DNA from: Solen grandis
Taxonomy: Eukaryota; Mollusca; Bivalvia; Adapedonta; Solenidae
DNA: 64,000 nucleotides
Direction: 5' to 3'
Assembly: GCA_021229015.1 (NCBI GenBank)
Contig: CM037777.1
Location: 20,644,110 to 20,708,109, forward strand
The translations under genes and the position numbers were made by a program. Under the pieces are notes generated by a model that was not told the DNA's origin, ran no database searches, and saw only the letters and a list, made by a program, of their open reading frames with translations. Shown in pieces: positions 1 through 34,712 of this stretch. Every line of letters starts with the position of its first letter. Position 1 is the stretch's first letter.

Positions 1-230
1 TAAAATAAAATGGTGTTGATTGCCATGGCAACCAGAGTTCTGCATGGATCAAGTTTATTTTAGCAATTTTTGTGGAGGTTCACCCAAAGATCATTCATGC
101 CAAGTTTCTTCAATTTCTATCATGCTGTTTCAGAGGAGATGTCTTTTAAAACAAATTGTTGATGACAGACGATAAACGATGGACGGCGGATGATCCCAAT
201 AGCTTACCTTGAGCACTGGTGAGCTAAAAA
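1..230 (+). mobile_element. 3' part of an F2-family short non-autonomous element
   Basis: This is the 3' portion of the repeat family called F2 here. It carries the core module also seen at 28.6-29.5 kb (a CCATGGCAACCAGAGTTCT stretch, then ATCAAGTTTATTTTAGCAA). A GAC-rich stretch follows, then the F2 end with GCTTACC, GAGCAC and GGTGAGCTAAAAA at 202-230. The 5' part lies outside the window. No coding potential was seen. Confidence 0.75.
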
Positions 231-375
231 CAGGAGTGTTCTCTGGAACATGTGTGTCACCTGCTGAAGCGTGACGGAAAAGTGTGATGGACAGACAGAC
301 AGTCGGACTGACCGATGACGGAAAAGTGATCTCAATATCTCACCTCTGCTTGCAGCAGGTGACACAAAAATAGGA
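231..375 (+). mobile_element. Short F4-family element
   Basis: This element of about 145 bp abuts the F2 3' end. Its 5' end has the hairpin TGTTC-TCTG-GAACA, followed by the word GTGTCACCTGCT. A middle rich in GACGGA and GACAGAC follows. The 3' end is a hairpin finishing in GCAGGTGACACAAAAA. It is the shortest complete example of the common design described in the findings. Related pieces lie near 27.46 kb and, inverted, near 62.1 kb. Confidence 0.6.
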
Positions 376-501
376 ATAATTTACAACAAAGAGCTGTCAG
401 AGGACAGCACTCTCGACTATTCAAAATGCTTGTTGGTAAATAAAAAAAAAATTATTTCAATTCTTGCCCTTCATATACCCTGTATATAAAAATAGTCAAA
501 A

Positions 502-2046
502 ACTAGAGCTATCACTGAAGGTGATTAATACCCCCACAAAATACTTTAATGCAGGAGAAGCCAGACTTCAGGCAGAGCATAGATAAGAACCTGTATACAT
601 AGTATATTGGTTGTGATATTAATAAGTAAAGTTTTTATTTAAAGTTGATAGAGAGTCAATAATGGTTGTTTGTCACAGTAGTTTAAAAATATAAGGTTAC
701 AGTTCTTGAACACTGCACTTCTCCTAGTTGCCATCTGTTTACATTTTAAGTTTCAAGTATATACCATGTATAATATTCGAGTTATGTTCAGGACAAGAAA
801 AACAAGGAAAAGTAACAAAGGGAAATAACTCTGTAATTACTCTAGATAGAGTTATGGTTCTTGTGCACTGCACTTCCTCTCATTGTGCTTGACCATTGTA
901 TGAAATTGTTTTGAAATCCAACCAGTAGTTTACAAGTTATACTCCGGACAAGGAAAAAATACAAAGGGCAATAACTCTGTAATTACTCTAGATAGAGTTA
1001 TGGTTCTTGTGCACTGCACTTCCTCATATTGTGGTTGACCATTGTATGAAATTGTTTTGAAATCCAATCAGTACTTTACAAGTTATACTCCGGACAAGGA
1101 AAAAATACAAAGGGCAATAACTCTGTAATTACTCTAGATAGAGTTACGGTTCTTGTGCACTGCACTTCCTCATATTGTGGTTGACCATTGTATGAAATTG
1201 TTTTGAAATCCAACCAGTAGTTTACAAGTTATACTCTGGACAAGGAAAAGTAACTAAGGGCAATAACTCTGTAATTCCTATAGATAGAGTTATGGTTCTT
1301 GTGCACTGCACTTCCTCATATTGTGGTTGACCATTGTATGAAATTGTTTTGAAATCCAACCAGTAGTTTACAAGTTATACTCTGGACAAGGAAAAGTAAC
1401 AAAGGGCAATAACTCTGTAATTCCTATAGATAGAGTTACGGTTCTTTGTGCACTGCACTTCCTCTCATTGTGCTTGACCATTGTATGAAATTGTTTTGAA
1501 ATCCAACCAGTAGTTTACAAGTTATACTCGGACAAGGAAAATACAAAGGGCAATAACTCTGTAATTCTTAGATAGAGTTAGGTTCTTGTGCACTGCACTT
1601 CCTCTCATTGTGCTTGACCATTGTATGAAATTGTTTTGAAATCCAATCAGTACTTTACAAGTTATACTCCGGACAAGGAAAAAATACAAAGGGCAATAAC
1701 TCTGTAATTACTCTAGATAGAGTTATGGTTCTTGTGCACTGCACTTCCTCATATTGTGGTTGACCATTGTATGAAATTGTTTTGAAATCAACGTACTTTC
1801 AAGTTATCTCCGGACAAGGAAAAAACAAAGGGCAATAACTCTAATAATCAAGATGGAGTTATGGTTCTTGTGCACTGCACTTCCTCTCCATGTGCTTGAT
1901 CATTGCATGAAGTTGTATTGAATTCCAACTTGTGGTTTTCAAGTTATGCTCCGGACAAGGAAAATGCAATGGACCGCTGGACCGACCGACCGACCACCGG
2001 GTGACTCCTATATACCCCCCCAAACTTTGTTTCGGGGGTATAATTA
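502..2046 (+). mobile_element. F6-family element nested in F1
   Basis: The 5' end is AACTAGAGCTATCACTGAAG, with hairpin ATCAC-TGAAG-GTGAT, then the word AATACCCCCAC. The 3' end has a GACCGACCGACC stretch and a hairpin finishing in CGGGGGTATAATTAT. The core is the approximately 146 bp tandem array listed separately. The flanking F1 sequence continues without loss compared with the F1 copy at 6703-6850, which fixes the boundaries within a few bases. No target duplication is obvious. Confidence 0.65.
690..1965 (+). repeat. 146 bp tandem repeat (about 8-9 units)
   Basis: The marker TTGTGCACTGCACTTCCT recurs at about 861, 1007, 1153, 1299, 1446, 1586, 1732 and 1868. Spacing is 146-147 bp, with shorter units of 140 and 136 bp. 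A more diverged unit starts near 700. Each unit contains GGGCAATAACTCTGTAATT and TACAAGTTATACTCCGGACA. The same core in more diverged form occurs inside the F5 element at 26.3-27.2 kb. Confidence 0.9.
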
Positions 2047-2963
2047 TATACCTTGATAGTCTAATACCCTTAGATAGGTTTATGAAGTCTAAAATCAATT
2101 CCACGCCTAGTTACTGAGACATAAGTATAAAAACACTGTGCATGCAAAACTTTAACCACGTATCCAAGTTAGAAAAGGGCAATAATTTGTATAAAATTCA
2201 GTCCCAAGAGTTATCCTCCTTGCCCCTGAATACACTCCAAAACTTTCTAGTAAATACCATAAACAATTTCTGAGATATAAGCTGGATAGTAGCTTGCATG
2301 AAAAACTTTAACCAAAAAGTCTAAGTCAAAAGGTGGCCCTAATCTGCATTATTTTCAGTCAAGAACTATCTGCCACTTTAGTATGATACCATTGAACATA
2401 ACAAAGATGTTTATAATCAAACCCAGGCCTGGTTACTGAAATATAAATAAGCATGAAATTCCTTGCATGCAAAACTTTAACCAATATTTTGAAGTTAAAA
2501 AGGGGCCATAACTTGTAATATATTCCATCAAGAGTTACCTATCTTGGTTGTCTGATGCCCCTAAACATATTCATAAACTTTTGAGTCAATACCATGAATG
2601 GTTATTGAGATACAAACTGGATAGTAGCTTGCATACAAAACTTTAACCAAAATTTCTAAGTTATAAAGGGGCCATAATTTGTAATATATTCCATCAAGAG
2701 TTATCTACCTTGGTTGTCTGATGCCCCTAAACATATTCGTAAACTTTCAAGTCAATACCATGAATGGTTATTGAGATACAAACTGTATAGTAAATTTTTA
2801 AGTACAAAAGGGGCCATAATTTATATTAAATTCATAAATTTCAATCAATACCATAAATGGTTATTGAGATATAAGGTTGATAGTAACTTTCATGCAAAAC
2901 TTTAACCAAAAGCTGCAATGCCAACGCCAAAGCTGGGCGACTACGATAGCTCTCATATTCTTC

Positions 2964-3688
2964 GAAGTTAAAGTTAAAAGTTTTGCATGCAAGGTACTTT
3001 CATGCTTATATCTCAGTATGCAGGCATGCGAATGATTTGAAACATCTTTAATATGGCTAGGGGTATCATACTTTCATGGTAGACAACTTTTGATGGAATA
3101 TGTTACAAATTATGGCCCCTTTTTAACTTAGAAATTTTGGTTAAAGTTTTGCATGCAAGGTACTTTCATGCTAATATCTGAGAGTCCAGGCATGGGATGA
3201 ATTTGAAGCATCTTTAATATGTTTAAGGGTATCATACTATAAAGGAAGATAACACTTGATGGAATATATTGAAAATTATGGCCCCCTTTAACTTAGAATT
3301 TTGATTAAATATTTGCATTCAAGCTAATATCCAGCTTATATCTCAGAAATTGCTTGTGGAATTGACTGGAAAGTTAAGGAGTGTCTTCAGGGGCATCAGA
3401 AAACCTAGGAGGATAACTTTTTGACTGAATTTTATGCAAATTATGGCCCTTTTCTAACTTGGATTTTTGGTTAAAGTTTTGCATGCACAGTGTTATTGTG
3501 CTTATGTCTCAGTAACTAGGCATGAGATTGATTTTAGACTTCATAAAACTATTCAGGGGTATCAGGCTATCAAGGTATATCATTTTTGACTATTATTATG
3601 TAAGGGCAAGAATTGAAATAGATTTCATTTGATTTACGAACAAGCATTTTGAATAGTCGAGCGTGCTGTCCTCTGACAGCTCTTGTTA
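2964..3688 (-). mobile_element. Inverted F1 element, 3' truncated
   Basis: Read on the minus strand, this begins at about 3688 with AACAAGAGCTGTCAGAGGAC and CGCTCGACTATTC. It then runs through F1 body modules to about 2964, where it meets the truncated 3' end of the forward F1 copy. The pair forms a 3'-to-3' inverted dimer with both 5' hairpin ends outermost. Confidence 0.65.
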
Positions 3689-4040
3689 ATATAGCACTCC
3701 CCTAACCTGGACTCCTGAATCCAGCCCTAATATGTATGGGTAATATTATTCATACGGCATCAAGTAAGTTTTTTATCACAACATTACAGCAGCTGCTGCA
3801 ATACAATTTATATGACAAATCTGTTATGTTTTTATGATGCTGTGTTTATTAGTTTACTGTGAAATAGTTCAATTTTTAGGTCAGTTTTTATGGAAGGTTT
3901 TATCCATGCATATTAATTATAACCCGATAAAAAATATTTATGTTGAGTTGCAAAATTTTAAAAGTTTGAATAAAGGTTTTATCATGGTCCATCCTATAGC
4001 TAGCCACATGGAGTGACCAGGTGGAAAAGGAAAGTAGTCA
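3689..4040. other. Unassigned spacer
   Basis: AT-rich sequence between the F1 inverted copy and the F2 copy starting at 4041. A 60-codon open frame at 3834-4016 has no recognisable domain, and I see no gene or structured repeat here. Confidence 0.5.
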
Positions 4041-4208
4041 AACAAGAGGGCCAAGATGGCCCTGAATTGCTCAAGTGAGAAATACTGCTTTCATTGCCTT
4101 TTACAACTAAGTCATATGGAATACATGCAGAAGGACAGCAATATAATCTTAATTCCACACAAGAAGTTGACATGTGGTAAAAAAAACCAAGTTAACCCTA
4201 GCATGGGA
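4041..4208 (+). mobile_element. F2 element, 5' part (split by the DIRS element)
   Basis: It begins AACAAGAGGGCCAAGATGGC with the hairpin GGGCCA-AGA-TGGCCC, then TTGCTCAAGTGAG, a degenerate form of the F2 word GCTCACCTGAG. The sequence ends at GCATGGGA. It continues at 11152 with ACAATTTTGACC, as the uninterrupted paralogue near 19,000-19,060 shows (GCCTGGGAACAATTTTGACC). Confidence 0.75.
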
Positions 4209-4355
4209 CCATTATTTTCCATAAAGCCTTCGGCTTTCACATGTATAAGTAGCATTTCATTCTGAACATGTTCTATACATCGTAGTTTAAAGTAAAAGCA
4301 AGTGACCCAGTGACGTCAACACCAGGAAGCTGCACATGAAATAGTCATATTCATT
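4209..4355 (+). repeat. DIRS left inverted terminal repeat
   Basis: This stretch contains ATTTTCCATAAAGCCTTCGG, GAACATGTTCTATACATC, AGTTTAAAGTAAAA, GTGACGTCAACACCAG and GCACATGAAATAGTCAT. All recur as reverse complement at 10992-11115. The outer 45 bases additionally match, inverted, the first half of the internal complementary region at about 10770-10818. AAAGCCTTCGGCTTT is a terminal palindrome. Confidence 0.88.
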
Positions 4356-4512
4356 CTAGCGTTCTGCAAGTAAACATTGCACATGGTAAAATTGACCAAG
4401 TTTGTGTTTTCTAAAGACGCTGAGGATGCTGTACCAGTTAATTTGCAATACACCATAAGCTGTATTGTATTATTTATTTGTTTTGTGCTGTCAGTCGGTT
4501 TTTTGAGTTTTT

Positions 4513-5772
4513 TTGTGTTTTCTGAGCGAAGTGTTTAGCTGTTTCAATATGATATCGGGAAGGGACGATGTCTTTTCCATTCAGGACAAAGACGCGGACA
4601 AGTCCTTTTCAGAATTTAGTTCCGTATCAGAGGATGAGCACGATGTGCCGCCAGCTAAAGTAAAGTCAGTTTTGGTGAAAATTAACAAGACTTTGGCAAA
4701 AAAGGTTAAGTCTACAAAGAAAAAATCTTCAGCAAATAAGGAGAATGTTGCCACATGTGTTAGTTTTAACGTGAATTTTGACATTACCAAGTTGTCAGTT
4801 GATGATATTGCTCATTTAAGAGACATTTTAGGGATTGATAATCTTAGTAAGACTGCTGAAGGGGATAAAAGTCAGCATTGTTTGTTTGGTCAACCCTTGA
4901 ATAATTTGCCAAATGTCCATGTTGAGACTGACAATGCAGACTCTGAAGGGGAAGTTGAGAACAATTTGCACAAACAGAATGTTACTGTGGACATTTCTGA
5001 TGCTTTATTCTGATGAGTGTGATGAGTGTGAAGACAAAGAGGACTATGATGAATGGGACCTCCCTGTCTAAAAACTCCTGAGAAGGGTAAGCCAGTGTCG
5101 TCTTCACTAACCATGCTTATCAATACGCACGTACGTCTCAGTGTGAGATTGACTCTTTAATCACTAAAATAAGGTTCCAGAGAACTGTGAGATGCAAACC
5201 CTGCTCTTTGTAAATAATGAGGTATGGAAAATTATGGATAAGAGGGCTCATTCAACAGACAGGAGTATGGTAGATATCCAGAACATTGTGGCCGCAAGTA
5301 TGGCCCCAGTGATAAAACTTGCAGAGGTAGTTAAACCTTATGTATCTGGTAATGCAGAGGCAAAAAGACTTATTTTGGATGCACTTACTTGAATGGGTCA
5401 GGTGCAGTATAACCTGTCTATGAGACGTAGATATCTTATAAGGCTGTGCTTAAGAAGAAAGTACCACCTGTTGTGTAGTGTAACTACACCAATTATGAAA
5501 CATCTTTTTGGGGATGATGTCTCCAAGGATATCAAGTCATGTGACTTGTTGGTGGCTCTTGGGAAAGACTAGGGACAGTTTGGTGCTCCAATAGGTAGGA
5601 ATAGAGGATATTCTGGTTCAGGGTACCCCCGTAGAGGAGCCTATGTTTATAATGCCTCACAGAGCTATGATGGAAATCGGAATCAGAGGTTTCAGCCATA
5701 TCCTCCTAGAGGTCAGCCCAGAGGGGGCTTGAGGAATTACATGATTCCTAAGAAGACAGCTTTGGCTACTGT
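4513..5772 (+). pseudogene. DIRS gag-like ORF, degenerate
   Basis: The open frame 4513-5013 encodes an acidic, Ser/Lys-rich 166-residue peptide with a Lys-rich stretch (residues about 50-75). A second open piece at 5192-5392 follows in another frame. Sequence up to 5772 reads as a Gly/Arg/Tyr-rich tail (RNRGYSGSGYPRRG, then PPRGQPRGGLRNY). Position before the RT and the basic Gly-rich tail are typical of DIRS gag proteins. Frameshifts and stops separate the pieces. No CCHC zinc knuckle was seen. Confidence 0.65.
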
Positions 5773-5793
5773 GACTTCCCCAAATGAATAGAG

Positions 5794-6591
5794 ATGGGCA
5801 AGGTAAGCAAAATAGGAAACCTTAAATATTCTTCAGATCAATGGAAGAAATTTACTTCAGATCCTTGGGTATTGGAAACTATCTCAGGATATTGCACTGA
5901 CTTTGATTCTTTACCATATCAGTTGAAAAGTCCTAATGAAATCCCATTTAATTCAGAGCATGAGCTTATTGTTGAGAATGAGGTTAAAGAGTTGCTCAAA
6001 AAAGGAGCTATTATTCCCTCATGTTCAGAACCATATGAGTTCGTTTCTATTATCTTTGTGGTGCCAAAACCTTATGGAAAATATAGACCAATTATCAATT
6101 TGAAATATTTGAACAAATTTGTTTATTACGATCACTTTAAACAGGAGACTTTCAAATTTGTTTTAGACCTTTTACAAGAGGGCGATTTTATTACTTCCAT
6201 TGATTTGTGTGATGTCTACTTTTCCATTCCAATTAATGACAAATTTCAGAAATATTTAAAGTTTGCATAGAAAGGTCAGTTGTATCAGTTTGTATGCCTA
6301 CCATATGGTTTGAAATGAGCTCCATTTATGTTTATCAAGGTCTTGAAACCTATTTATTCGTGGTTTAGACAACAATGTATCAGGTGTTGTTATTACATAG
6401 ATGATTCGCTTAGTATGAATCAGGACAAGGATATTTGTGATAGTAATACCTCTACAATAGTTAGTACTTTGGGTAGTCTTGGTTATACCATAAATAATAA
6501 GGAATCTGTTCTTATCCCTTGCCAGAGAATTGTGTTTTTTGGATTGGTCATAGATTCTGTTTTGTTCATGGTCTTTTTAACAGAAGACAAG
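5794..6591 (+). pseudogene. DIRS reverse transcriptase, degenerate
   Basis: The reading frame contains RT signatures in order: VVPKPYGKYRPIINLKYLN, then SIDLCDVYFSIPI, then (after a TAG at 6268) GQLYQFVCLPYGL, then (after a TGA near 6316) APFMF and the catalytic YIDDSL at about 6397-6414. This spacing and the YIDD box fit the DIRS/Ty3 RT group. The frame is cut at 6591 by the F1 insertion and resumes at 8692 in the same sense. At least two stops lie before the catalytic box, so no full enzyme can be made. Confidence 0.85.
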
Positions 6592-8691
6592 ACCTGTCAG
6601 AGGACAGCACTCTCAACTATTCAAAATGCTTGTTGGTGAAACAAATGAAATCTATTTCAATTCTTGCCCTTTCACATACCCTGTACATAATAATAGTCAA
6701 CAAGAGCTGTCAGAGGACAGCACGCTCGACTATTCAAAATGCTTGTTGGTAAATCAAATGAAATCTATTTGAATTCTTGCCCTTCATAGTAATAGTAAAA
6801 AATGCTATATCTTGATAGTCTGATACCCTTTAATATATTTATGATGTCTAAAATCAATCCCATGCCTAGTTACTGAGACATAAGCACAATAACACTGTGC
6901 ATGCAAAACTTAAACCAAAAATCCAAGTTAGAAAAGGGCCATAATTTGCATCAGTCCAAAAGTTATCCTCCTGTTTTCTGATGCCCTTGAAGACACACCT
7001 TAACTTTCTAGTCAATTCCACAAGCAATTTCTGAGATATAAGCTGGATAGTAGCTTGAATGCAAAAATTTAACCATAATTCTAAGTTAAAAGGGGTCATA
7101 ATTTTTAATTTATTCCATCAAGTGTTATCTTCCTTTATAGTATGATACCCCTAAACATATTAAAGATGTTTCAAATCAATTCCATGCCTGGACTCTGAGA
7201 TATAAGCATGAAAGAACCTTGCATGCAAAACTTTAACCAAAATTTCTAAGTTAAAAAAGGGGGCCATAACTTGTAATATATTCCATAAAAAGTTATCTAC
7301 CTTGATAGTATGATACCCCTAAACATATTAAAGATGTTTCAAATCAATCCCATACCTGGATACTGAGATATTAGCATGAAAGTACCTTGCATGCAAAACT
7401 TTTACCAAAATTTCTAAGTTAAAAAAGGGGCCATAACTTGTAATATATTCTATCAAAAGTTATCTACCATGAAAGTATGATACCCCTTAACATATTAAAG
7501 ATGTTTAAAATCAATCGCATGCTTGATACTGAGATATAAGCATGAGAGTATCTTGCATGCAAAACTTTAACCAAAATTTCTAAGTTAAAAAGGGGCCATA
7601 ATTTGTAATATATTGCATCAATTACTACCTTGGGTATGATGCCCCTAAACATATTCATAAACTTTCAAGTCAATACCATGAATGGTTATTGAGATACAAA
7701 CTAGATAGTAGCTTGCACGCAAAACTTTAACCAAAAGCTGCAATGCCAACGCCGACGCCTACGCCAGGGTGACTACAATAGCTCTCATATTCTATGAAAA
7801 GTCGAGCTTAAAATGATATACCTTGATAGACTTATACCCCTTAAAATTTTTATGATGTCTAAAAACAAACCCATGCCTAGTTACTGAGACATAAGCACAA
7901 TAACACTGTGCATGCAAAACTTTAACCAAAAATCCAAGTTAGAAAACGGCCATAATTTGTATACAATTCAGTCCAAAAGTTATCCTCCTTAGTTTTCTGA
8001 TGCCCCTGTAGACACTCCTTAACTTTCTAGTCAATTCCACAAACAATTTCTGAGATATATGCTGGATAGTAGCTTGAATGCAAAAATTTAACCAAAATTG
8101 TAAGTTAAAAAGGGGTCATAATTTTAATATATTCCATCAAGTGTTATCTTCCTTTATAGTATGATACCCCTAAACATATTAAAGGTGTTTCAAATCAATC
8201 CCATGCCTGGATACTGAGATATTAGCATGAAAGTATCTTGCATACAAAACTTTAACCAAAATTTCTAAGTTAAAAAGGGGCCATAATTTGTAATATATTC
8301 CATCAAGAGTTATCTACTTTGGTTGTCTGATGCCCCTAAACATATTCATAAACTTTCAAGTCAATACCATGAAAGGTTATTGAGATACAAACTAAATAGT
8401 AGCTTGCACACAAAACTTGAACCAAATTTTCTATTGCATGCAAAACTTTAACCAAAATTTCTAAGTTAAAAAGGGGCCATAATTCATATTAAATTCAGTC
8501 AAGAGTTATTTACCTTGGTTGTCTGATGCCCCTGAACATATTTATAAATTTTCAAGTCAATACCATAAACGGTTATTGAGATATAAGGTTGATAGTAACT
8601 TGCTTAACTTTAACCTAAAGCTGCAACGCCAACGCTGACGCAAGGGCGACTACAATAGCTCTCATATTCTTCGAATAGTCGAGCTAAAAAA
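6592..8691 (+). mobile_element. Tandem F1 elements inserted in the DIRS RT/RNase H region
   Basis: A partial F1 5' end (6592-6702) is followed by a complete 5' end at 6703 (AACAAGAGCTGTCAGAGGAC, then GCTCGACTATTC). The body modules run to a first 3' end near 7738-7812 (GTGACTACAATAGCTCTCAT, AAAAGTCGAGCTTAAAA). A further body then runs to a second, better 3' end at 8640-8691 (GAATAGTCGAGCTAAAAAA). DIRS sequence joins cleanly across it (AGAAGACAAG before, GTTGAAAAGATT after), so no target duplication or loss is evident. Confidence 0.75.
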
Positions 8692-9390
8692 GTTGAAAAG
8701 ATTAAAAGTGTTGCAGAGAGTTTACTCCTGAAGGGTGTAGTGAAGATAAGAAAGCTTGCATCTTTTATTGGCCTTGGGGTAAATGCCTTCTCTGCTATTC
8801 TGGAGGCACCACTACATTACAGGTGCCTTGAAAGAAATAAATTAGCCAGTTTAAAAGAGAATTGGGATTTTGACAATGAGGTGGTGCTCACTTGTAGTAG
8901 TTAAAGTGAGATTAATTGGTGGTTAGAGAATGTAGAGCAGAAAAATGGAAAAAGAATTAGGCCCAAGGACATAGACATTGTTTGACAGACTGATGCTAGT
9001 TTTCAAGGCTGGGGTTCAAAAGATCTGGAATCTAAATTTGCTGCATATGGGAGGTGGTCGGATGTAGAGTTTGTAGAAAATATTAATGTTTTAGAACTCT
9101 TGGATATTTTCAAGACATTGCAGGCTTCATATTCCTCAGAAAAACACATGTATATTCAGATTCAGTCTGACAATGTTAGTGCTGTAGCATATGTTAATGA
9201 CATGGGGGTATGGTGTCTGAGGTTATCGATATATTAGCTAAGGATATCTGGGAATGATGTTTACAAAGAGATATTTATCTTTCTGTCATTTATATACCAG
9301 GTGAAGCAAATTCGTCAGACTTTTATTCAAGAAATGTTTCCGAAAATACATAGTGGATGCTAAAACCAGATATATTTGAGCATCTTAGTA
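8692..9390 (+). pseudogene. DIRS RT thumb / RNase H domain, degenerate
   Basis: The frame continues with KIRKLASFIGLGVNAFSAI and HYRCLERNK. RNase H hallmarks follow: QTDASFQGWG near 8990, NVLELLDIFKTLQ near 9090, SDNVSAVAYVNDMGG near 9170, and IPGEANSSDFYSR near 9300. The first Asp, the SDN Asp and the final Asp are visible. Stops at several positions, some where Trp is usual, disable it. Position between RT and tyrosine recombinase is standard for DIRS. Confidence 0.82.
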
Positions 9391-10717: not shown

Positions 10718-10769
10718 TTGATTTGGTTATATTTTTTATATATGGTGCATAATTAGTTTTGTTCTTTAA

Positions 10770-10885: not shown

Positions 10886-10984
10886 CCACCCTTTGTTTGG
10901 GATGTTGTTCTTGTACCTGGTGTTGAGGGTATTTTTCAAAATTGTTTCCTTCCCTAGTTGGGTCGAACAAAACAAATTGTGCCT

Positions 10985-11815: not shown

Positions 11816-12528
11816 TGCAAACTGTCCACCAAGAAGTTTCATTTTTGTGTTTACAATGTCTCACTGTCTTATATCAATACTCATATTGGCTGATATTTTT
11901 GTCACATTTGTAATTTAAATAAAATTTGACAAAAAAAGACATTCATACATTGCTTATTATTTCAGTTTATTTCATGGGGAAATCTCAAAACTGATAGGCA
12001 TAGATATCACATCTGAAAGTGTGATAGCTTGATAAGGAATGTTCACAAGTCAATGACGAGTGTAGCTACCATTAGCAACAATGCAATTCATACATTTACG
12101 CCTCATGGACAAGACCTTTGCTATTTGCTGTTGCGGAATTTGTTGTTGAATAAACTTTCCCCATGATATTGCAATGTATGAATGTTTGTGGTATATTTCA
12201 TTAAAATTGACTCTCGTAAAAATACTTTAATGTTAATCAATACCAGAGGAGCAATTTTAGTTGAGTGCAATGTATAATGATCAAAAGAAATAAATAAACT
12301 GAACATGAATGAATCTATGTGCATTCATATGTAAAGTTATACAAAATGATTTATATGAAGCATAAGATCATAATGTTGAGACAGACCTTCTATAACTCTG
12401 CAACATTTTATTCTAAAGTATGATGTCGAGATATCTTCATTTGATACTATCATGCTTATTTTGTACTGGCATGCCATTAATATGCTGATGTTTATGCAGA
12501 TAAGCTGAATGCCTAAACCTTACCTGTA
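11816..12528. other. Unassigned spacer
   Basis: AT-rich sequence with only short chance reading frames. I see no motif, RNA gene or clear repeat. Confidence 0.5.
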
Positions 12529-13062
12529 ACAAGAGGGCCAAGATGGCCCTAAAGACGCTAACCGGAGAAAAACTGCCTTCATCGCCTGTACAAGTTACTA
12601 AATTACAACATAGTTGTACTGAATACATAATCCATCAGATCATTTCAATTCAACAAACTAAACAGTGTCTGTGGTCAAAATTTGAAGTCAAACTTTACTG
12701 AGAGATTATGGTTTTAAACATTGTCAGTGAAACTTCAAAATGATAGCTAACATTATCAGAAATTTTGAAAATGACTGCTTAAGAAATGAAGATGCAGGAG
12801 TGCAAACAAAGTGAAGTCTGGCACTTTTAATATTAAAAGGGGCATAACTCCTGACCTAATAGGCTGATATCAGCCATAATCAAACTTTGCCCAGATATTA
12901 TGGTAATAAACATTGTCATAAAGTTTGAAGATGATTGCTTACGCAAATGAAGATGCTAGAGTGAAAACACATTAATTGTGGACGATGTACAGACGCGGAC
13001 ATTCATCGATCCTAATGGCTCATCCTGAGCACAATAATAGTGCTCAGGTGAGCTAATAAAAT
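12529..13062 (+). mobile_element. F2 element, core type c
   Basis: The 5' end ACAAGAGGGCCAAGATGGCC is standard F2 but is followed by a degenerate word. The core (GGTCAAAATTTGAAGTCAAA, GATATCAGCCATAATCAAAC) differs from the other F2 copies here except 29756-30275. The 3' end CATCCTGAGCAC...GTGCTCAGGTGAGCTAATAA is present. No coding potential. Confidence 0.75.
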
Positions 13063-14693: not shown

Positions 14694-15632
14694 AGAACAA
14701 AAGGGCCAAGATGGCCCTGAATCGCTCACCTGAGAAATATTGCCTTCATTGCCTTCTGTAACAGTCATACTGAATACAAAATGCATAGTATTACAGAAGT
14801 GCAGCAAAATAATCGTAATTCCACACAAAAACTGTACCTGTGGTCAAAATTTTGATGGTCATAGCTATAAAATCAAGTGACCCCCTAAGATGAGACCAAT
14901 TTATACACAAGAGCAATGATTTGAAACTTGGTTCAGGTCCACAAGGCCATGTTACATACCAAATATCTAAACCCATGATCTTGTGATTTCTAATAAGATC
15001 TTTTAAAGACTCTCCTATATTAGTCTATGTAAAATCAAGCAGCCCATGAGGCAAGCCAATTCTGACCCCAGGGCCATGATTTGAGCAAACTTGGTAGACT
15101 TCTATAAAGCCATGTAACACACACAATATCTAAACTCCAGGCCTTTTAGTTTCTGACACAAAGATTTTTCTAGTTTTCCTATTTAAGTCTATAAATTGAC
15201 CCCTGGGGTGGAGCCAATTTTGATCCCAGGGCCATGATTTTAACAATCTTGGTAGATGTCTATAAGGCCATAATACACAAAAAATATGTAATCTCTATGC
15301 CTTGTGGTTTCTGACAAGAAGATTTTTCTAATGTAAAATGAAGTAACCCCTGGGGCTGGACCTATTCTTGCCCTAGAGCCATGATGTGAACAAAGTTGGT
15401 AGATGTCCACTAGGCCATATTTCATACCAAATATCTAAACTCCAGGCCTTTTGGTTCCTGACAAGAAGATTTTTCTAGTTTTCCTATTTAAGTCCATTTA
15501 AAATCAAGTGACCCCTGGGAAGGGGCCAATTTTGACCCCAGGGCCATGATTCAGAGGAGATGTCTTTTAAAGCAAATTGTTGATGATCCTAAAAGCTTAC
15601 CTTGAGCACATTTTGATTTGGTGAGTTAAAAA
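14694..15632 (+). mobile_element. F2 element, core type a
   Basis: The 5' end is ACAAAAGGGCCAAGATGGCC, then GAATCGCTCACCTGAG. The core is four to five diverged modules containing AATCAAGTGACCCCTGGG and CCAGGGCCATGATTTGAAC. The 3' end is degenerate (GCTTACCTTGAGCACATTTT, then GGTGAGTTAAAAAT). Same core type as the DIRS-split copy and the 18.85 kb copy. Confidence 0.75.
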
Positions 15633-16303
15633 TAACAATGGAGTGCTCTAGGAGAAAAATAGACAAATGTCCTTCCTAACAAAAGTTATGCAGAAACTAA
15701 AGAAGTGATGTAAAAAAAATTCTATTTTTAGCCACCATGACCTTGACCTCACCTTTCCAGAAAACAATCCAAACCTTCCTCTTGATGCAGCCTAACTACT
15801 GACTGCAAACATGGAGGAGATTTCTCTTTCCTAACAAAAGTTGATATTGCCCGCACACATGCCCACCAGGATGATGTTTGACTCAGAAATTGTTTGTTGA
15901 TATACAGTTAAATCTCAACAAACTAATACCACCCTTCGGACTGCTGTCAACTGGTCTTAATAATGAGGTGGTCTGATAACCAAATTTCAATAAACAGGAA
16001 ATATGGAAAAGGGGATCTGAAAATAGTGGTCTTAATAGTGAGGTGGTCTTTATATGAGGAATAACTGTATCTACATTTACATTTGGAAGTTTCAAATCAG
16101 AGAGCGCAAAATCCAGCCTTCATGTACATCTACATATAAGGGCAAGTATTGCTGGTAAGTTTAAACCAAATTTCTCCAGTAGTGTAGGAGTTGCATTCAC
16201 AAGGTTCTGCTTTTAAAACTTCATATAGGAAAAGTTAAGAAGGGGCCATAACTCTTGAAAGTTGCATATGAGCACAAAATCCAGCCTTCATGTACATCTT
16301 CAT
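15633..16303. repeat. Spacer including first unit of a 165 bp direct repeat
   Basis: A unit starts near 16105 (GCGCAAAATCCAGCCTTCAT, TTGCTGGTAAGTTTAAACC, AAGGGGCCATAACTCTTGAA). A second begins near 16270 and is interrupted by the F2 element at 16304, resuming at 16869. Nothing was recognised at 15633-16100. Confidence 0.6.
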
Positions 16304-16868
16304 ACAAGAGGGCCATGATGGCCCTGAATCACTCACCTGATTATAAATGAGCAACATATGTTGGATTTTTCATATTGACCTACTTTTTGACCCCACATGA
16401 CCCAATTTCAAACTTGTCCAAGATTTTATGAAAACAAACATTCTGACCAAGTTTCATAAAGATTGGGCCAAAAATGTGGCCTCTAGAGTGTTAACAAGGT
16501 TTTTCTAAGATTTGACCTCATGACCTACTTTTTGACCCCACATGACCCAATTTTGATCTTGTCCAAGATTTTATGGAGAGAAACATTCTGACTAAGTTTC
16601 ATGAGGATTGGGCTAAAAATGTGGCCTCTAGAGTGTTAACAAGGTTTTCATAAGACTTGACCTCGTGACCTACTTTTTGACCCCTCATGACCCAATTTCG
16701 AACTTGTCCAAGATTTTATGGAGGTAAACATTCTGACCAAGTTTCATGAAGATTGGCCTAAAAATATGGCCTCTAGAGTGTTAACAAGCCAAATTGTTGA
16801 CGACGCACAACGCACGACGGGCCATCACAAAAACTCACCCTTGAGCACCTTCTCAGGTGAGCTAAAAA
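16304..16868 (+). mobile_element. F2 element, core type b, in the second unit of a direct repeat
   Basis: It begins ACAAGAGGGCCATGATGGCC, then GAATCACTCACCTGA. Just over three tandem 127 bp core units follow (CCCAATTTCAAACTTGTCC, AACATTCTGACCAAGTTTC, GTGGCCTCTAGAGTGTTAAC). The 3' end is CTCACCCTTGAGCACC...TCTCAGGTGAGCTAAAAA. The host repeat is continuous across it: TGTACATCTTCAT before, AAGGGCAATTATTG after. Confidence 0.8.
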
Positions 16869-17321: not shown

Positions 17322-18218
17322 AACAAGAGGGCCAAGATGGCCCTAGATCGCTCACCTGAGAAAAGTATCATTCATTGCATATACAAAACAGATTGCTTTA
17401 GAATTAAGATGATGAGGTGAAACAATGTTCAGGAATTTTCTGACCCCATCCACAAAAGATATCATCATGACAAACATTCTGCCAAAGTTTGAGGATGATT
17501 GGACCAAAAATGTTGCCCTCAGAGAAAAATTTTTCTAAGATTTGACCTACTGACCTACATTTCTATCCAGCCCCACCCATTTTCAAACTGGTTCAAGATA
17601 TAATCATGACAAACAATCTGACCAAGTTTGAGGAAGATTGCATCAAAACTGTGGCCTTTAGTGTGTAAACAAGATTTTTCTAAGATTTGACCTATTGACC
17701 TACTTTTCGGTCCAACCCTGCCCATTTTCGAAAGGGTTCAAGATATCATCAAGACAAACATTCTGACCAAGTTTGAGGAAGATTGGATCAAACTTGTGGC
17801 CTCTAGTGTGTAAACAAGATTTTTCTAAGATTTGACCTATTGACCTACTTTTTGATCCAACCTGACCCATTTTCGAAAGGGTTCAAGATATCATCAAGAC
17901 AAACATTCTGACCAAGTTTGAGGAAGATTGGATCAAAATTGCGGCCTCTAGTGTGTAAACACCAAAATTGTTGACGGACGACAAGATTTTTCTAAGATTT
18001 GACCTACTGACCTACTTTTTGATCCAACTTGACCCATTTTCGAAAGGGTTCAAGATATCATCAAGACAAACATTCTGACCAAGTTTGAGGAAGATTGGAT
18101 CAAAATTGTGGCCTCTAGTGTGTAAACATCAAATTGTTGACGGACGATGGCAGACAGCAGACGGACAATCAAGTATCCCAAAAGCTCACCCTGAGCTATG
18201 CTCAGGTGAGCTAAAAAG
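17322..18218 (+). mobile_element. F2 element, core type b, five tandem units
   Basis: The 5' end AAACAAGAGGGCCAAGATGG is followed by GATCGCTCACCTGAG. About five 127-128 bp core units (GTTCAAGATATCATCAAGAC, AACATTCTGACCAAGTTTG, GTGGCCTCTAGTGTGTAAAC) follow. A GACGGACGATGGCAGACAGC stretch precedes the 3' end AAGCTCACCCTGAGC...GCTCAGGTGAGCTAAAAA. This is the clearest complete F2 copy with this core. Confidence 0.85.
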
Positions 18219-19480: not shown

Positions 19481-21240
19481 AGACTGGTGGCCAGCGGCCG
19501 CTTGTCTTATGCTGATATTCGAAATAGGGCCTTTCTGATATGCATATTTTCCACAACATTTTTAACTGTAGCACTCCGCGCCTTGTACGGATCCATACAA
19601 TGCAAGCTGAGCTAACGAAAGCGAGTGGAGTGTGTTACACAGATGTGTTGCAACAACGTTTAAATGATATTTAGAAACTCTTTTAATGACTGTGTAAAGT
19701 TTGTGTGTCCACTCTTCTTTTACAAATTCTTCAAGCTGATATAACCATTTTCAGCGTAAATAAAATACATGCGTCGTTTACAAAACAAAGATTTAACCCA
19801 ACTGGAGTACATGTAGATCCACTCATGAAATTATGAAAAATAGTGCTTCATATAAGAACGTAATTAACCCAAAGTAGTTCAGCAGCATTTCGCACGATAA
19901 TGATATATTACGTTGCATTTCTGTCTTCTCATAAACTCAGTAGCCACGCAAAAGCTAGAACAGTGGAAAAAAGCGGCCATAATTTAGTGGAATGGAAGAT
20001 CACGTGACCCAATGTTTTGAAGTGGTAGGCCTAAAACACACAATGAAAATTTATGGAGCAATGGACGCAATGAAAATATTACCAGCAAGGAAATTTTATT
20101 TTCAGAATAGCATTAAAGTCCATGTGCCTCGATAAAAACGCAAAGGAAGTTTGCTAGACACAATGAGTTGAAATTTGTTATATTATTCTTGCATGGATTA
20201 AAATAAGAATACAATACTTATGCTCTGGATACGCTATTTAATAATATGTTCTCTCAAAATAAAGCAGACACACATACGATGTTTACACTGCTGGCTCCAC
20301 TCTCCAGGCCAGGTATAAAAGAGTGCATCTAGATAAACAGGCATCATATCACAAAATAATAATAATCAATATAATGTTTTAAATTTAATGAATATTATTA
20401 ATTTGTGTATCTATATCATCAAGATTGTTCATATACCGTGCAATGTAAATAACCGCGAAATGGAAATTCCATTGCACCTTAAAAATACCACGCAGATGAA
20501 AGTTACATGTTCATATGCAAACTCGTACCAACGACAAGCAATAGAAGTATGAAGAAGGAAATTTAAGATTAAGTTTAAGCTTCTGTCCAAATCACCATCA
20601 TCAGCATGTAATAATTTAATATTATAAAAAAAAATGATTGATATATTTATAATCAATAAAATTTAGAACTGTTAATTGTGTGTGTGTGTGTGTGGTATTG
20701 ACACGTGCCATTAAGGGCCTTCTTCACACCTTATCAACCAGGAAGGGCGGTGGGACGTTAAACCCAACAAACAACTGGGAAGGGTGTGCTCGAGTCAATA
20801 TTCTAGATTACGTTAGTTAGTCGTTGCTTCTGTTCATCATCATCATCATCATCATCATAGGCAAGGGATTGATTTTAGACTTCATAAATATAAAGGGTAA
20901 GAGTATCAAGGTTTATTATTTTTACTATTTTATATATAGGGCATTTGAAATCAATTTCATAGTCCAGCGTTCTGTTCTCTGACAGCTCTAGTTCAATATT
21001 TAGTTTAGATGTATGTTTTTAATTTTGATTATCGTGTTCTAATGTTTAATAATAAAAAAATGAAAACTATCTTTTCTTGTTTCTTATTTGACATCTGAGA
21101 AACTGATACTGACCACATGTATACCCCCCTTTATAAACAGATTAGAATCCAGCATATAACCTATTTGGATTACAATCTAGCGCGCTTGCTGCTCACCACG
21201 ACCAATCCGCCGACAGTCTATCAGTGCCTTTGGCGCTTTG
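19481..21240. other. 1.76 kb insertion of unknown origin inside an F2 copy
   Basis: This segment separates two halves of an otherwise collinear F2 element. It contains a (GT)n run at 20679-20694, a bivalve SINE-tail-like piece near 20745-20772 (GGTGGGACGTTAAACCCAAC), (CAT)n at 20838-20859, and an F1 remnant in reverse orientation at about 20860-20996 (TGTTCTCTGACAGCTCTAG). I found no ORF with a domain and no clear terminal repeats, so its nature is unknown. Confidence 0.5.
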
Positions 21241-25350: not shown

Positions 25351-26166
25351 CATATCTCTTTCTCATCACACGCAATACGTTCACAGACAATATTGAAACT
25401 GTATTTAAAATTATAAAACCTATATTTAGATTTTCTAATTCCATTTGCCATCATTTGGCTGATCACATTCACCCTTTGTGAATATGCTAACTTCATAGAC
25501 TGAACTTACGAAATTGCTACCCTGAACTGGTGAAGAACATGTCACGTGGAACTGCAAGCAGGATACCATATTCTATACTCAAAGGAAAAAGAAACACAGG
25601 GTAAACTTTTGTGTCAGTTTTAAATAGGAAATATTTGGCGGTATAACAGTTTAAAATATTTTGATAAGTTTTTTTTTCAAACAAAATAAATGCTTTAGAA
25701 TGAGATGGGGTCTATCATATGAGGTTTATTGCAAGGTTAGGAGGTAAAAACTTGAGTCTGGCTACAACAGATTTTAGTTACCCTGCGTTTTTTTTTCCTC
25801 TGAGTAAATTTTCGATGAAGTTGCATTTACGAAAATTGTGTTTTCCCGTTCAATGTGACCTGTACACTTGTCAAAGTTATTTTTCATGAAACAAAGATGT
25901 CACATATCATCTGTGAATGAGCTGTTTTAACAAATAGATGAATTGATAAATAGACAGGCTCATTTACAACATCTTTGTTTCATGGGTTAAACTTTCATAC
26001 TAGGAAATATATACATATAATATTCACATCAAAAGATATAAACATATGAGTGACATCAAATCACATAATAAAATGAATGCATTAATTTTCTAATTAATTC
26101 ATTTTCAAGTGACTGATCAAAAGTAATTCAATTTTACAAAGGACAACCTTGTTTAAAAAATATATA
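25351..26166. other. Unassigned spacer
   Basis: AT-rich sequence with no supported feature. AACATCTTTGTTTCATG near 25968 is the reverse complement of CATGAAACAAAGATGT near 25887, so an imperfect stem-loop of about 95 bp is possible. Confidence 0.5.
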
Positions 26167-27312
26167 ACTAGAGATTTGTTTTCATAGAAAACTGATGTCT
26201 CCACCCAGTGGGTCCCACCCCATCCCCTCACACACAAATACACACTATAAGTATAACAAGATTTATCTTGTTGTCAAGAAATTGTGAAAAGAAGGAATAA
26301 CTCCAAAAATATTGAGGCCAGAACCTTGCGCATGACACTTTCTCTAATTAATTTCTTTCAATAAATAAAAATTAATTTCAATGGCAAGAGTTGAACGAGA
26401 GTTATATTAAGGACACAAAATTGTATAAAAGCGGAAAAACTCAAGAATAAGAAACATTGGAAATGGATTATGCTCTAGTGTACTGCATTTCTTGTCCATA
26501 ACGTCTACCCACCTATGAAGCTTCAAAGGTTATATATCTCATAGTGCACGAGTTATGCTCCGGACAAAACTTGATTGAATATGAAATTAAACAATGGGCA
26601 ATAACTCCAAAAATATGATTTGCAGAATTTAAAGGTTCTTGTGCACTGCAATACTCCTTTATGAGGTCTATTCACCTATGAAGTATCAAGGTTATATATC
26701 TCATAGTGCATGAGTAATGCCTTCAAAAAAAAAGAAAAAGTATGAATTTTTGCACTTCTCCTCCAGTGATCATCCATAAGTTTCAAGGTTATATTCTTAT
26801 AGTGCGCAAGAAATGCTCTTGACAAAAATTAAGTATGAAATTTAATAAAGGGCAATAACTCCAAATATATGATGTGCAGAGTCACAGTTCTTGTGCGTGA
26901 CACTTCCCCTCAATAAGATCTATCCACCAGTGAAGTTTCAAGTAAATAGCTTTGATACTTTGTGAATTCCGGAAAAAAAAAAAAATTCAACTTCTTGTGC
27001 ATGACACTTCTCCTTAATGTGTTCTATCCACCTGTGAAGTTTTAAGTTAATAGCTTTGATACTTTGTGAGTTATGCTCCGGACAAAAATTAAGTATGAAA
27101 TTTAACAAAGGGCAATTACTCCATAAAAATGATGGGCAGAGTTAAGGTTTTGCTGCACTTCTCCTCTATGAGATCTATCCACCTGTGAAGTTTCAAGTTA
27201 ATAGCTTTGATACTTTCTGAGTTATGCTCAAGACAAAAAATGTGACAGACAGACGGACGGACAAAGAGACAGACAACTCTGATAAAAACAATATAATGGA
27301 GAGACATAATTA
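26167..27312 (+). mobile_element. F5-family element
   Basis: The 5' end is ACTAGAGATTTG with hairpin GTTTTC-ATA-GAAAAC, then the word TGATGTCTCC. The core is several diverged 140-180 bp modules (AAAGGGCAATAACTCCAAAA, TTCTTGTGCACTGCA, GAGTTATGCTC) homologous to the F6 core at 690-1965. A GACAGACAGACGGACGGACA stretch precedes the 3' word GGAGAGACATAATTA. Confidence 0.65.
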
Positions 27313-28600: not shown

Positions 28601-29553
28601 AAACAAGAGGCCCATGATGACCCTAAATCGCTCACCTGAGATAAATAGGTTGACCCAAGGAACATCTGTACCAATTTATTTTAAAATCTGGCCAGTAGTT
28701 TTGAAGAAGATGATTTTTAAAGTTTTCATATTTTTCTTTTTGTTGCCATGGCAACCAGAGTTCTATATGGATCAAGTTTATTTTAGCAACTTTTGTGAAG
28801 GTTGACCCAAGGATCATTCCTGCCAAATTTAATCAAATTCTGTCCAGTGGTTTCAGAGGAAATGTTGATTAAAGTTTTCCCTATATACATTTAAGGCAAA
28901 TAAGCCCCGCCCCTGGCGGCCATGTTTTTTATGGATCGAAATTTTTTTAGCAACTTTGGTAGAGGTTGACCCAAGGAACATCTGTACCAATTTATTTTAA
29001 AATCTGGCCAGTAGTTTTGAAGAAGATGATTTTTAAAGTTTTCATTCTTTTTTCTTTTTGTTGCCATGGCAACCGGAGTTCTACATGGATCAAGTTTATT
29101 TTAGCAACTTTTGTGAAGGTTGACCCAAGGATCATCCCTGCCAAGTTTAATCAAATTCTGTCCAGTGGTTTCAGAGGAGATGTTGTTTAAAGGTTTCTCT
29201 ATATACATATAAGGCAAATAAGCCCCGCCCCTGGCGGCCATGTTTTTTTACGGATTGGAATAATTTTAGCAACTTTGGTAGAGGTTGACCCAAGGAACAT
29301 CTGTACCAAATTATTTTGAAATCTGGCCAGTAGTTTTGAAGGAGATGATTTTTAAAGTTTTCAAATTATTTTTCTTTTTGTAGCCATGGCAACCAGAGTT
29401 CTTCATGGATCAACTTTATTTTAGCAACTTTTGTAGAGCCTCACCCAAGGAACATTCTGTCCAGCGGTTTCAGAGGTCGTTTAAAGCAAATTGTTGACGA
29501 CGGACGATCACAAAAGCTCACCTTGAGCACTTTGTGCTCAGGTGAGCTAAAAA
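28601..29553 (+). mobile_element. F2 element, core type d, with 315-320 bp tandem units
   Basis: The 5' end is AAACAAGAGGCCCATGATGA, then AATCGCTCACCTGAG. The core repeats with GACCCAAGGAACATCTGTAC at about 28651, 28968 and 29286. Each unit includes GCCATGGCAACCAGAGTTCT and AAGCCCCGCCCCTGGCGGCC. The 3' end at 29515-29553 is a perfect long hairpin (GCTCACC, TTGAGCAC, GTGCTCA, GGTGAGC), then TAAAAAA. Short frames here are repeats, not genes. Confidence 0.85.
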
Positions 29554-29755: not shown

Positions 29756-30275
29756 AGAAACAAGAGATCCAAGACGGCCCTGAGGGGCTAACCTGAAAAA
29801 AATTGCCTTCGTTGCCTGTACAAGTTATTAAATTATAGCAAAGTAGTACTGCATGAACACATAATCTATGAGATCATTTCAACTCCACAAACCAAACAAT
29901 ACATGTGGTCAAAATTTGAAGCCAAACTTGACTGAGGGGTTATGGCTTTAAACACTGTCAATGAAACTTCCAAAATGATTGCTTAAGCAATGAAGAGGCT
30001 ACAGTGTAAATAGTAAAATCTGGCATTTTTATTAATTAAAGGGTGATAACTCCTGACCTAATTATCCAATATCAGCCATAGTTGAACTTGGCAAAGAGAT
30101 TATTGCTATCAACATTGTCATAAAGTTTGAAAATTTAATTGCTTTAGAAATGAATGTGCTAGAGTGCAAACAAAGTGAAGTCTGGCATTTTTAAATATTA
30201 AAAGGGGTATAACTCCTGACTTAATTGGCCGATATCAGCCATAATCAAACTTGGCTGAGAGATTATGGTACAGAC
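29756..30275 (+). mobile_element. F2 element, core type c, 3' truncated
   Basis: The 5' end AACAAGAGATCCAAGACGGC is followed by a core matching 12529-13000 (GTGGTCAAAATTTGAAGCC, CCGATATCAGCCATAATCAA). It ends abruptly near 30270 with no 3' hairpin. Confidence 0.7.
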
Positions 30276-31661: not shown

Positions 31662-31665
<4 letters not shown>

Positions 31666-32455: not shown

Positions 32456-32577
32456 CTGTCTTCGAGTGGGTAACATAATTTTGCGGATATCCTCTGACGT
32501 GGGGTTTTGTATCAGTCGGTTTTCCGTTTCTTTGTCCAGATTCACCGGAAATAAAGACTTTCGCCTGAGCCGTCCGG
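32456..32577 (-). CDS. Candidate alternative exon of the Na+/H+ exchanger C-terminal tail
   Basis: On the minus strand, TTACAG|CCGG begins and CGAAGACAG|GTCAGC ends a 122 bp segment. Its one sensible frame encodes 40 residues, including GRLRRKSLFPV, TENRLIQNPTSED and IRKIMLPTRRQ. It starts in the phase left by a cryptic donor (CAAA|GTGAGC at 35855) within the terminal exon. IRKIM after an acidic pair resembles the EEIRKIL segment in vertebrate NHE tails. If used, it replaces the last ten residues of the short form and lengthens the cytoplasmic tail. The plus-strand frame over this region is its antisense shadow. Confidence 0.45.
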
Positions 32578-33831
32578 CTGTAAGATCAATGATCAATGAT
32601 AATAAATCCAGAGTTCCAGATAACGTGCGTATCGGCGTTATTTACCCTTCAAAATTACCTAGAAACGCATTAAGATATAATTTTGATGCGTACGTTTACG
32701 CATGCTCCTTTTAAAATACGCATGGAAAGAAAAATCACAGCGTCAGCTACTTTCGTGCCTTCTGATCAGCATCTGTTTATTTTAGAAACTGAAACTAATC
32801 TACAAATGTATATTTTATGCCTACCTGAAAATTCCATAAATAAGTGTTGCTTTAATTGTGTACTGTTTACTGGGCATGCATCAACCCTGTGACCATGTGA
32901 CGTAATTTGCTTCCATGTGAAGCAGTGTAATCTGTGTCACATGCTGTTATGTAAACAGGTTAGGAACGGCTTACTTTTACACCTAAGAAATAAACATAAT
33001 TCAATAGTAAAGTTCAAAGGGTGTGAAACTGACACAAGCCAATGTGCAGTTTCCTTTAGAACTCTCCAGCTTCTCTTTGAGATGCCGCTTATCCAGACTT
33101 CAATGTGTTTTGTGTTAGCAATATAGCAGCTAACCTGTTGTGTAAGATTTCTTTTCATTTTGCATTTGCTACATATTTATCATCTTTCATCATGTGTAGG
33201 AAAGAAATACCATTGATCTAACATTAAAAAAATCGGACACAATTGTGAGTTGGCATTTTCAATCAAATGTCAATTAAAATAAGATAAAAATCTGTTAAAT
33301 GAAAATCATTACCAAAGTCGTATTTAAGTTAAGTATTTTAGTCCATTTTGGAAAACTTGTGACAGCATGTTCAGACTAAATGTTTGGTTTCTATGACAAC
33401 AGTAACTTAATAAAATGTTAAGTAAAAACAACAACAACACCTATTTCTTTTTGTCATTATGTAATTAATGTCCTCAGTTATCATCAAAGTGGTAAGTTTT
33501 GTATTTTTCCCTTTATGTGATTTACGTATCACCATTTACCCTCATACATTCAAAAGTGGGGGTAATTACTCAAGGGGTCAAAAAATTATCTGGTACTCTG
33601 TAAATCTAAAGGTGTACCAGTCGCAATAATCGCAATCCCGAGTCAGACCAAAAATAATCTTTATTTTCTGTAAACTGTGCAAGGATCGCGAACCTTTAAT
33701 TACATACTGACCGATCTGACAAAAAAGACCCCCAGAACAATGAAGTTTTATTTGATTAAATTATGTATTTGAAATCAAATTTGATTTATTTGTCATACAT
33801 TGCGTCAAATGTTAATCGTGAAACTGAACTA
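32578..33831. other. Likely intron or intergenic sequence
   Basis: AT-rich sequence with short chance frames on both strands. I see no repeat with clear ends and no RNA gene. Confidence 0.5.
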
Positions 33832-34712
33832 AACTAGAACTGTGTCCAAAGGACACGGATGCCCCCACTGTGCAGATGTGCTCGTAAACAAGAGCAGCTT
33901 CATTTAATGTCTACAAAATTCTGTTCTTATTATAGCGTTTCAGTTGAAATTTCCTCAATTATGTATTAATGATAAAAAAGTTACCTAACTCTTGAGGCAT
34001 CATATTTGGTTTCTTTACAGATGGAATACAATATTAGTGTCTGAATAAAACAAAACTTTGAAACACATGTCTGGTCTCCTAAAACTGCAGGAACACAATG
34101 CTGTGATCAGAGAAATATGTTGGGTATACAGTTACTTTTGGCTGTGGCAACTCATCTTTTACATAGACAAGATCAATAATAGATCCACTTAAGTGTGTTG
34201 GTAATGTCACACACTGGCGATAATTAAGCAGAGATTCAGATAGTCTTCTGTACCAAACTGAATCAATTTAATTATTTATATGGTATATAGTGAACAAATC
34301 AACAAAGGGCCATAATTCTGTTAAATTTGGTCGCCGCGAAAATTCCTTTCTTTACTACCATCTACACATTAAGGTTGTTCATCCCTGGAAGTTTAAGCAA
34401 AATCTGCCATCCGGTTGAAGAGGAGTTGCGTTCACAAAATTTCTATATGGTATATAGTGAACAAATCAACAAAGGGCCATAATTCTGTTAAATTTGGTCG
34501 CCGCGAAAATTCCTTTCTTTACTACCATCTACACATTAAGGTTGTTCATCCCTGGAAGTTTAAGCAAAATCTGCCATCCGGTTTAAGAGGAGTTGCGTTC
34601 ACAAGATTTCGGGACGTACGGACGGACTGACGGACTGATGGACTGACGGACGGACGGACGGACGGACAAGTGCAACGCTATATGCACCCCACTTTGTGGG
34701 GGCATAAAAAAA
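33832..34712 (+). mobile_element. F3-family element
   Basis: The 5' end is AACTAGAACTGTGTCCAAAG with hairpin GTGTCC-AAA-GGACAC, then the word GATGCCCCCAC. The core includes a 176 bp tandem pair (34265-34440 and 34441-34612; TATATGGTATATAGTGAACA, GTTTAAGCAAAATCTGCCAT). A long GACGGACTGACGGACGGACG stretch precedes the 3' hairpin TATGCACCCCAC-TTT-GTGGGGGCATA, then AAAAAA. Non-coding. Confidence 0.8.

Follow-up and report, generated by a model that had tools for sequence, protein, structure and literature searches.

The gene-less repeats of six families, F1 to F6, found in a stretch of 64,000 nucleotides from the bivalve Solen grandis (C1:20644110-20708109, hereafter the window) are almost certainly non-autonomous Helentrons, known as Helentron-associated interspersed elements (HINEs), which have ends of the Helitron2 type and are mobilised in trans by the Rep–PIF1–endonuclease proteins of full Helentrons. 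We demonstrate here their common anatomy, the sharp ends of their copies, partner genes for F2 and for F4-like ends, and three insertion sites without target duplication.

Terminal anatomy and copy boundaries

An initial annotation of the window proposed that these families share one terminal design, in which a lead motif is followed by a small hairpin and a subterminal “word” W, whose complement W' recurs near the opposite end. The design is real. The motif AAC[ATG][AG]GA[AG] occurs at 38 sites on the two strands of the window (shuffle mean 29.4), and nine of these carry a perfect hairpin (stem 5 bp or longer, loop of 3-5, within 5 bases of the motif), every one being a family head at a family end; in 100 dinucleotide shuffles, the mean number of hairpin-bearing heads was 0.84 and the maximum 3. 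These heads lie at 229, 501, 4041, 6699, 12528, 17322, 26166 and 33832 on the plus strand and at 3687 on the minus strand, the last being absent from the earlier list. Eight of the twelve positions in that list passed the strict motif and hairpin test, three (385, 14694 and 16304) failed it by an altered lead motif and one (28601) by an imperfect stem, and several of its coordinates were 1-4 bases off.

The orientation of the elements must be reversed, since what was first read as their start is the Helentron 3' end; the original direction is ruled out by the gene direction in three full Helentrons of the same genome (D, G and I, described below) and by the published layout. Read in the Helentron sense, the elements begin at a T-run with the 5' subterminal repeat and its hairpin, and a GTCC-like microsatellite is present; many also have central repeats in tandem; the right side comprises the complementary subterminal repeat, the 3' hairpin and an end of about CTCTTGTT/CTCTAGTT. 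The 3' hairpin directly follows the 3' subterminal repeat, and the ends of D, G and I have one too. Folding of the 5' subterminal repeat into the 5' hairpin is seen in the tail hairpins, that of F1 having only 5 pairs. In Helentron D, the left side consists of a T-run, TTGTGTCGCCTGCATAGCATGGCAGACACA (5' repeat and hairpin) and the microsatellite GTCCGTCGTCG, and the right side of TGCAGGCGACACAA (3' repeat), GTGTTCCAAGGAACAC (3' hairpin) and CCACATCTAGTT, followed by a T-rich flank. The GACGGAC-like stretch noted earlier does exist, and we reread it as the opposite strand of the GTCC-like microsatellite (GGAC x 14 in F3).

The elements of the window are given below with strands in the Helentron 5'-3' sense, so that each former “head” is a 3' end; the basis of each call is given in brackets.

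229..370, minus: complete F4 HINE of ~140 bp, W TGTGTCACCTGC and W' GCAGGTGACACA (pairing, strict scan, 20 aligned copies)
385..2967, minus: F1 HINE with F6 inside, its right tip cut at TTCGAAG so that W' is missing (right limit by eye)
501..2043, minus: F6 HINE lying inside F1, where it occupies an A-run, ends AACTAGAG and GGGGGTATAA, interior with 146-bp tandem repeats (8.1 copies, 802-1964) plus a GACC stretch (copy starts)
2968..3687, plus: second F1, in the opposite orientation, without the 5' tip (limits by eye, copy starts)
4041..4085, minus: F2 3' end, right end not pairable (head hairpin)
6587..6698, minus: additional F1 3' end (~112 bp), directly adjoining the full F1 at 6699 (sequence inspection)
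6699..8684, minus: complete F1 HINE (W/W' of 12 nt)
12528..12572, minus: F2 3' end only (head hairpin)
14697..16868, minus: F2 HINE with a further F2 head inside at 16303 (W/W' of 13 nt)
17322..18217, minus: complete F2 HINE (W/W' of 11 nt)
20950..20993, plus: F1-like 3' end, degenerate, its head reading on the minus strand (head comparison)
26166..27312, minus: F5 HINE with an intact 3' hairpin, the other end decayed and the right limit uncertain (best W' match 7 nt; genomic copies of its left part listed)
28602..29553, minus: complete F2 HINE, deletion derivative of a G-like Helentron (alignment to G)
29759..29803, minus: degenerate F2 3' end (W comparison)
33832..34712, minus: complete F3 HINE with a GGAC microsatellite at 34612-34667 (pairing, strict scan; listed copies up to 100% identical)

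At 2900-2985, the two F1 copies are joined tail to tail at TTCGAAG, and the 5' tip is lost in both.

The pairing of W with its complement holds for F1 to F4. The longest exact matches are 12 nt in F1 (6699, matched at 8673), 10 nt in F3 (at 34696), 14 nt in F4 (at 353) and 13, 11 and 11 nt in three F2 elements (14697 to 16850, 17322 to 18201 and 28602 to 29537), the spacing between the paired words being 0.1-2.2 kb. F6 gives 8 nt, and the 7 nt of F5 are no higher than the cross-family background. For the heads at 4041, 12528 and 29759, the search for a right end by W pairing found none that could be paired. When 12 heads were compared with 12 tails, own or same-family pairs were mostly at the top (10-15 nt versus mostly 3-7 elsewhere), the exceptions being F5, which was not distinct, F6, whose word fits the F3 tail over more bases than its own, and a cross-match of 8-9 nt between F3 and F7.

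A strict scan for the full design gave three matches in the window versus one in 20 shuffled windows pooled. The first relaxed scan gave four versus four in 20 pooled shuffles, and a wider relaxed scan over 349,052 bases gave 15 versus 7, 0, 3, 0 and 0 in five shuffles; we judged 11 of these 15 to be family members and 4 to be chance matches. Since the relaxed scans are weak alone, the case rests on the heads and on the copy boundaries.

These boundaries, counted over the best 40 places per search from 738 to 4645 first-look candidates, coincide with the predicted tips. Copies begin at query positions 67-75 in 38 of 39 other places for F1 (tip 74), at 10-14 in 34 of 39 for F3 (tip 13), at 114-117 in 30 of the 37 other places without F1 sequence for F6 (tip 117), and at 1500-1512 in all 39 other places for the D-type HINE (tip 1501). 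For F2, whose right end was used, alignments stop at query 173-175 in 28 of 40 places, while three represent the query or longer duplicates, two run beyond and seven are partial (three of them with a second piece ending at the tip). For F4, 20 near-full-length places picked from the 39 others listed align with the window copy from AACA to ACAAA and have dissimilar flanks, except for the flank shared by the window and locus L063, which is a local duplication; the W and W' cores are both intact in 15 of these 21 sequences by exact search. Boundaries lying away from the hairpins, proposed earlier as an outcome that would count against the design, were thus looked for in these copies and not found. 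At loci L077 and L078, the F4 copies run into a further F4, the arrangements being a tandem, in which a head follows a tail, and a tail-to-tail joint.

The statement that structure rather than sequence is conserved proved correct for the stems. When stem arms were swapped among seven families, none of the 42 combinations paired fully; the seven stems were picked because they pair with themselves, so the weight lies only on these swaps and on the variety of pairs. Between F4 and Helentron D, which have similar stems and W words one change apart, the W/W' pair shows one compensatory A.T to G.C double change. Within-family covariation in F4 was useless as a test, because most differences among its copies are decay without a matching change. 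The families are not wholly “sequence-unrelated”, as was first thought: the end words mostly differ, while internal sequence is common to F5, F6 (in its 146-bp tandem repeat) and Helentron D, with 67-73% identity, despite different end words, F3 and Helentron I have ~50 bp in common, TCACCTG is common to the W words of F2 and F4, and F3, F6 and F7 have a C-run in common.

Rep–helicase–endonuclease partners

At least 150 matches to Helitron_like_N were scored in the genome, of which we examined 12 Rep genes picked for long open frames and classed them by domain content: A, B, C, D, E, G, H, I and J with both flanks, and K, M and N on the right side only. A matching end pair on both sides was found for three of the nine genes with both flanks (D, G and I); these are Rep-helicase genes whose ends share the words of window families (G and I) or come close to one (D), a check suggested at the outset.

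Helentron D (C10:33152911) has a 2270-aa frame with DUF6570, Helitron_like_N, PIF1 and Exo_endo_phos_2 domains between F4-like ends 12.8 kb apart, in a 20-kb stretch that includes 100 N. A second copy with an equal profile score lies at C16:13323128, with the D 5' end ~7.4 kb upstream (83%) and the D 3' end at 99% over 1,509 bp, both by alignment only. No DDE gene was seen between the ends of D. Helentrons I and G were read at their flanks: I (C16:13276938) has F2 ends on both sides, ~17.7 kb apart, and G (C1:10029096), with a 1997-aa frame, has F2 ends ~13.1 kb apart. Gene C, whose 2575-aa frame also matches Herpes_teg_N, is 94.1% identical to the right part of I over 4,809 bp, and the similarity stops exactly at the F2 tip. 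Both D and C contain PHIH (the HUH motif), Y..SY (two tyrosines), Walker A and GDFN motifs.

The window itself contains a link to these genes. The F2 element at 28602, a HINE derived by deletion from a G-like Helentron, has the 5' part of G (93.2% identity over 895 bp) joined to the G 3' end (95.7% over 47 bp). Partners with Rep, PIF1 and endonuclease between matching ends are available for F2 (G and I, and C by its right end) and for F4-like ends (D and its C16 copy). The Helentron-type replicase suggested by the initial annotation is right for F2 and F4-like ends, between which such genes lie; for F1, F3 and F6, the shared anatomy points to it, and for F5 it does so weakly.

Several candidates were rejected. 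Locus J was considered as the partner of F6, and its F6-like end proved to be an inserted HINE that B lacks at the corresponding position. AT-rich candidate end pairs, including one weak pair in A (5553-14372), were taken as chance. K, M and N showed no end pair of their own on the right side, the only side read.

Insertion sites and alternative explanations

F6 is inserted into F1 at an A-run, and the flanks rejoin as a GTC(A)nTGATATACC-like sequence without duplication in three F1 copies (L001-L003), the F1 at 3687 of the window representing the empty site. The three copies may reflect one insertion carried along by F1. At J, the F6-like HINE lies within a TTTT run of the B/J family, with B as the empty site and the left side defined by alignment only. 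The third comparison is a HINE of ~1.2 kb in B, absent from J, with the subterminal repeat ATCCCCCGCCGC/GCGGCGGGGGAT, a GTCC microsatellite and the end CCTTGTT. The F6 insertion in F1 and that in J thus have T-rich targets (A/T runs) without duplication. In addition, F1, inserted together with its extra 3' end, breaks a retroelement-like frame near 6588-8688, which resumes across it at several possible cut points; the retroelement-like frames at ~4500-12500 that F1 interrupts resemble reverse transcriptase and look DIRS-like. Published HINEs are described as using T-rich targets without modification (PMC4067079, in the text available).

By analogy with the known family, the HUH Rep protein would nick the 5' end, the PIF1 helicase would peel off one strand while its replacement is made, the end point would be set by the 3' hairpin and by the subterminal repeats pairing with each other, and a T-rich target would receive the single strand with no duplication.

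Short, numerous, non-coding elements with inverted repeats could also be miniature inverted-repeat transposable elements (MITEs) moved by a DDE transposase. This origin is hardly credible here, since the repeats are placed asymmetrically, one close to the tip and the other on the inner side of the terminal hairpin, the symmetric terminal inverted repeats and target duplications of such elements are not seen, and the genes between matching ends encode Rep–PIF1–endonuclease proteins. A DDE transposase family with these ends and target duplications, the other contrary outcome named at the outset, was not observed: none of the three filled/empty comparisons shows a duplication, one join being unclean. 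It is highly improbable that the families are non-autonomous derivatives of canonical Helitrons (Helitron1), served by a Rep-helicase without endonuclease. Both groups do have Rep and PIF1 domains; however, the canonical signature (5' TC, 3' CTRR, AT target) is absent, as the 3' ends are CTTGTT/CTAGTT, the 5' ends T-runs and the targets T-runs, and the elements have two hairpins as well as subterminal repeats that pair. Moreover, no endonuclease-free Rep gene was identified: the domain was detected by Pfam in A, C, D, G and I (some below cut-off) and by tblastn in B. A and B had been candidates for such genes and were dropped because both possess it (32 bits in Pfam for A, E 5e-13 in tblastn for B). 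It is very unlikely that F1, F3, F5 and F6 depend on a replicase group of their own, hitherto undescribed and either convergent on Helentron ends or split from them early. Such a group would account for the lack of partners for these families among the 12 Rep genes, but their layout and 3'-terminal motif are those of F2 and F4, the microsatellite is similar, and part of the interior of F5 and F6 is also found in Helentron D.

Some observations weigh against the assignment of all six families to Helentrons. No partner was found for F1, F3, F5 and F6 among the 12 Rep genes examined of at least 150; within the nine with both flanks, A, B, E, H and J have no matching end pair and C has a right end only. 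The own ends of A and B were not seen, as the alignment of copies extends to the last bases of the 4-kb queries taken from the right side, and the F6-like end near J belongs to the inserted HINE. The endonuclease scores are below the curated cut-offs in C (24.3 versus 24.5 bits) and in G (21.7 at best). The specificity of W is not absolute, since the word of F6 (501) matches the F3 tail over 10 nt and its own tail over 8. The HINE in B shows no duplication, yet its joined flanks are ~5 bases short of J and the join is not a clean TT. Finally, the last 1.0 kb of D forms a HINE-like unit that has its own inner 5' end, and the original 3' end of D was not seen.

The identification of these families as HINEs agrees with descriptions in print, contrary to the earlier impression that no such family set had been described. 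The account of Helentrons and HINEs by Thomas, Vadnagara and Pritham (2014, PMC4067079) includes subterminal inverted repeats (subTIRs) of 11-15 bp, a palindromic 5' subTIR or a subTIR plus an inverted repeat (IR), a 3' palindrome, T-rich unmodified targets, HINEs exceeding Helentrons in number, a Rep/helicase/endonuclease partner and, in one mite genome, seven Helentron/HINE families classed by the subTIR word. F1 (12 nt), F2 (11-13), F4 (14) and the 15-nt exact repeat of D fit this length range, and F3 (10) and F6 (8) are shorter; the words, central repeats and host differ, and no structural difference was found from the sections of that account at hand. Helitron2 (Bao and Jurka 2013, PMC3627910) has asymmetric terminal inverted repeats (ATIRs) and two hairpins, the 5' ATIR making the 5' hairpin and the 3' ATIR lying just upstream of the 3' hairpin, with compensatory changes noted; the available part of this paper shows no difference in layout. 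In the Pacific oyster, 11 Cg_HINE elements are reported with a 5' subTIR and IR, a GTCY/GTCC microsatellite, a satellite-like centre and a 3' subTIR with a palindrome (PMC7492417, in the portion available), the likeness being one of description. Families told apart by the subterminal word correspond to the existing Helentron classification, and the design is already in print.

Composite ends and further families

Ends of the same design mark additional families at L053 (~1126-2610; stem ATGTTT-AAACAT, W TATGCCCCCCT), at L056 (3434; stem GTTGC-GCAAC, head only), at L042 (~3470-4670; subterminal repeat ATCCCCCGCCGC) and at L040 (~2389-3330; stem GTGTT-AACAC, W TGCCCCC, only the tail glimpsed). 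Another kind of repeat, 308 bp long, with AGGAGCAAACTCC-like and GGAGTTTGCTGGAGGAGCTCC-like ends and 22 listed places at 95-97%, lies at ~5012-5319 of L040.

Helentron D (L046, C10:33141430-33151429) and the C16 copy (C16:13327209-13328708) both end in the 1.0-kb HINE, with 99% identity over 1,509 bp across the junction. In the window, reading in the Helentron direction, a second F1 3' end, ~112 bp long, comes after the full F1 (6587-8684), and two F1 heads 112 bp apart also occur at C2:28814540-28814778. These composite ends look like the result of the 3'-end bypass that yields new ends in Helraiser, a canonical Helitron; in the available text of that study (PMC4778049), the 3' hairpin likewise serves as terminator, whereas the ends are TC...CTAG and a hairpin is described only near the 3' end. 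The doubled F1 end has a rival explanation in repeated insertion into a hot-spot A-run. There is about an even chance that Helentron families gain new 3' ends by bypass onto the terminator of a neighbouring HINE and then spread as composites. If true, such bypass could explain how the sets of words change under a constant design.

Within one genome, long open Rep–helicase–endonuclease frames can be assigned to the end words of gene-less repeats that are abundant there, which makes the pairing of word and Rep protein open to study.

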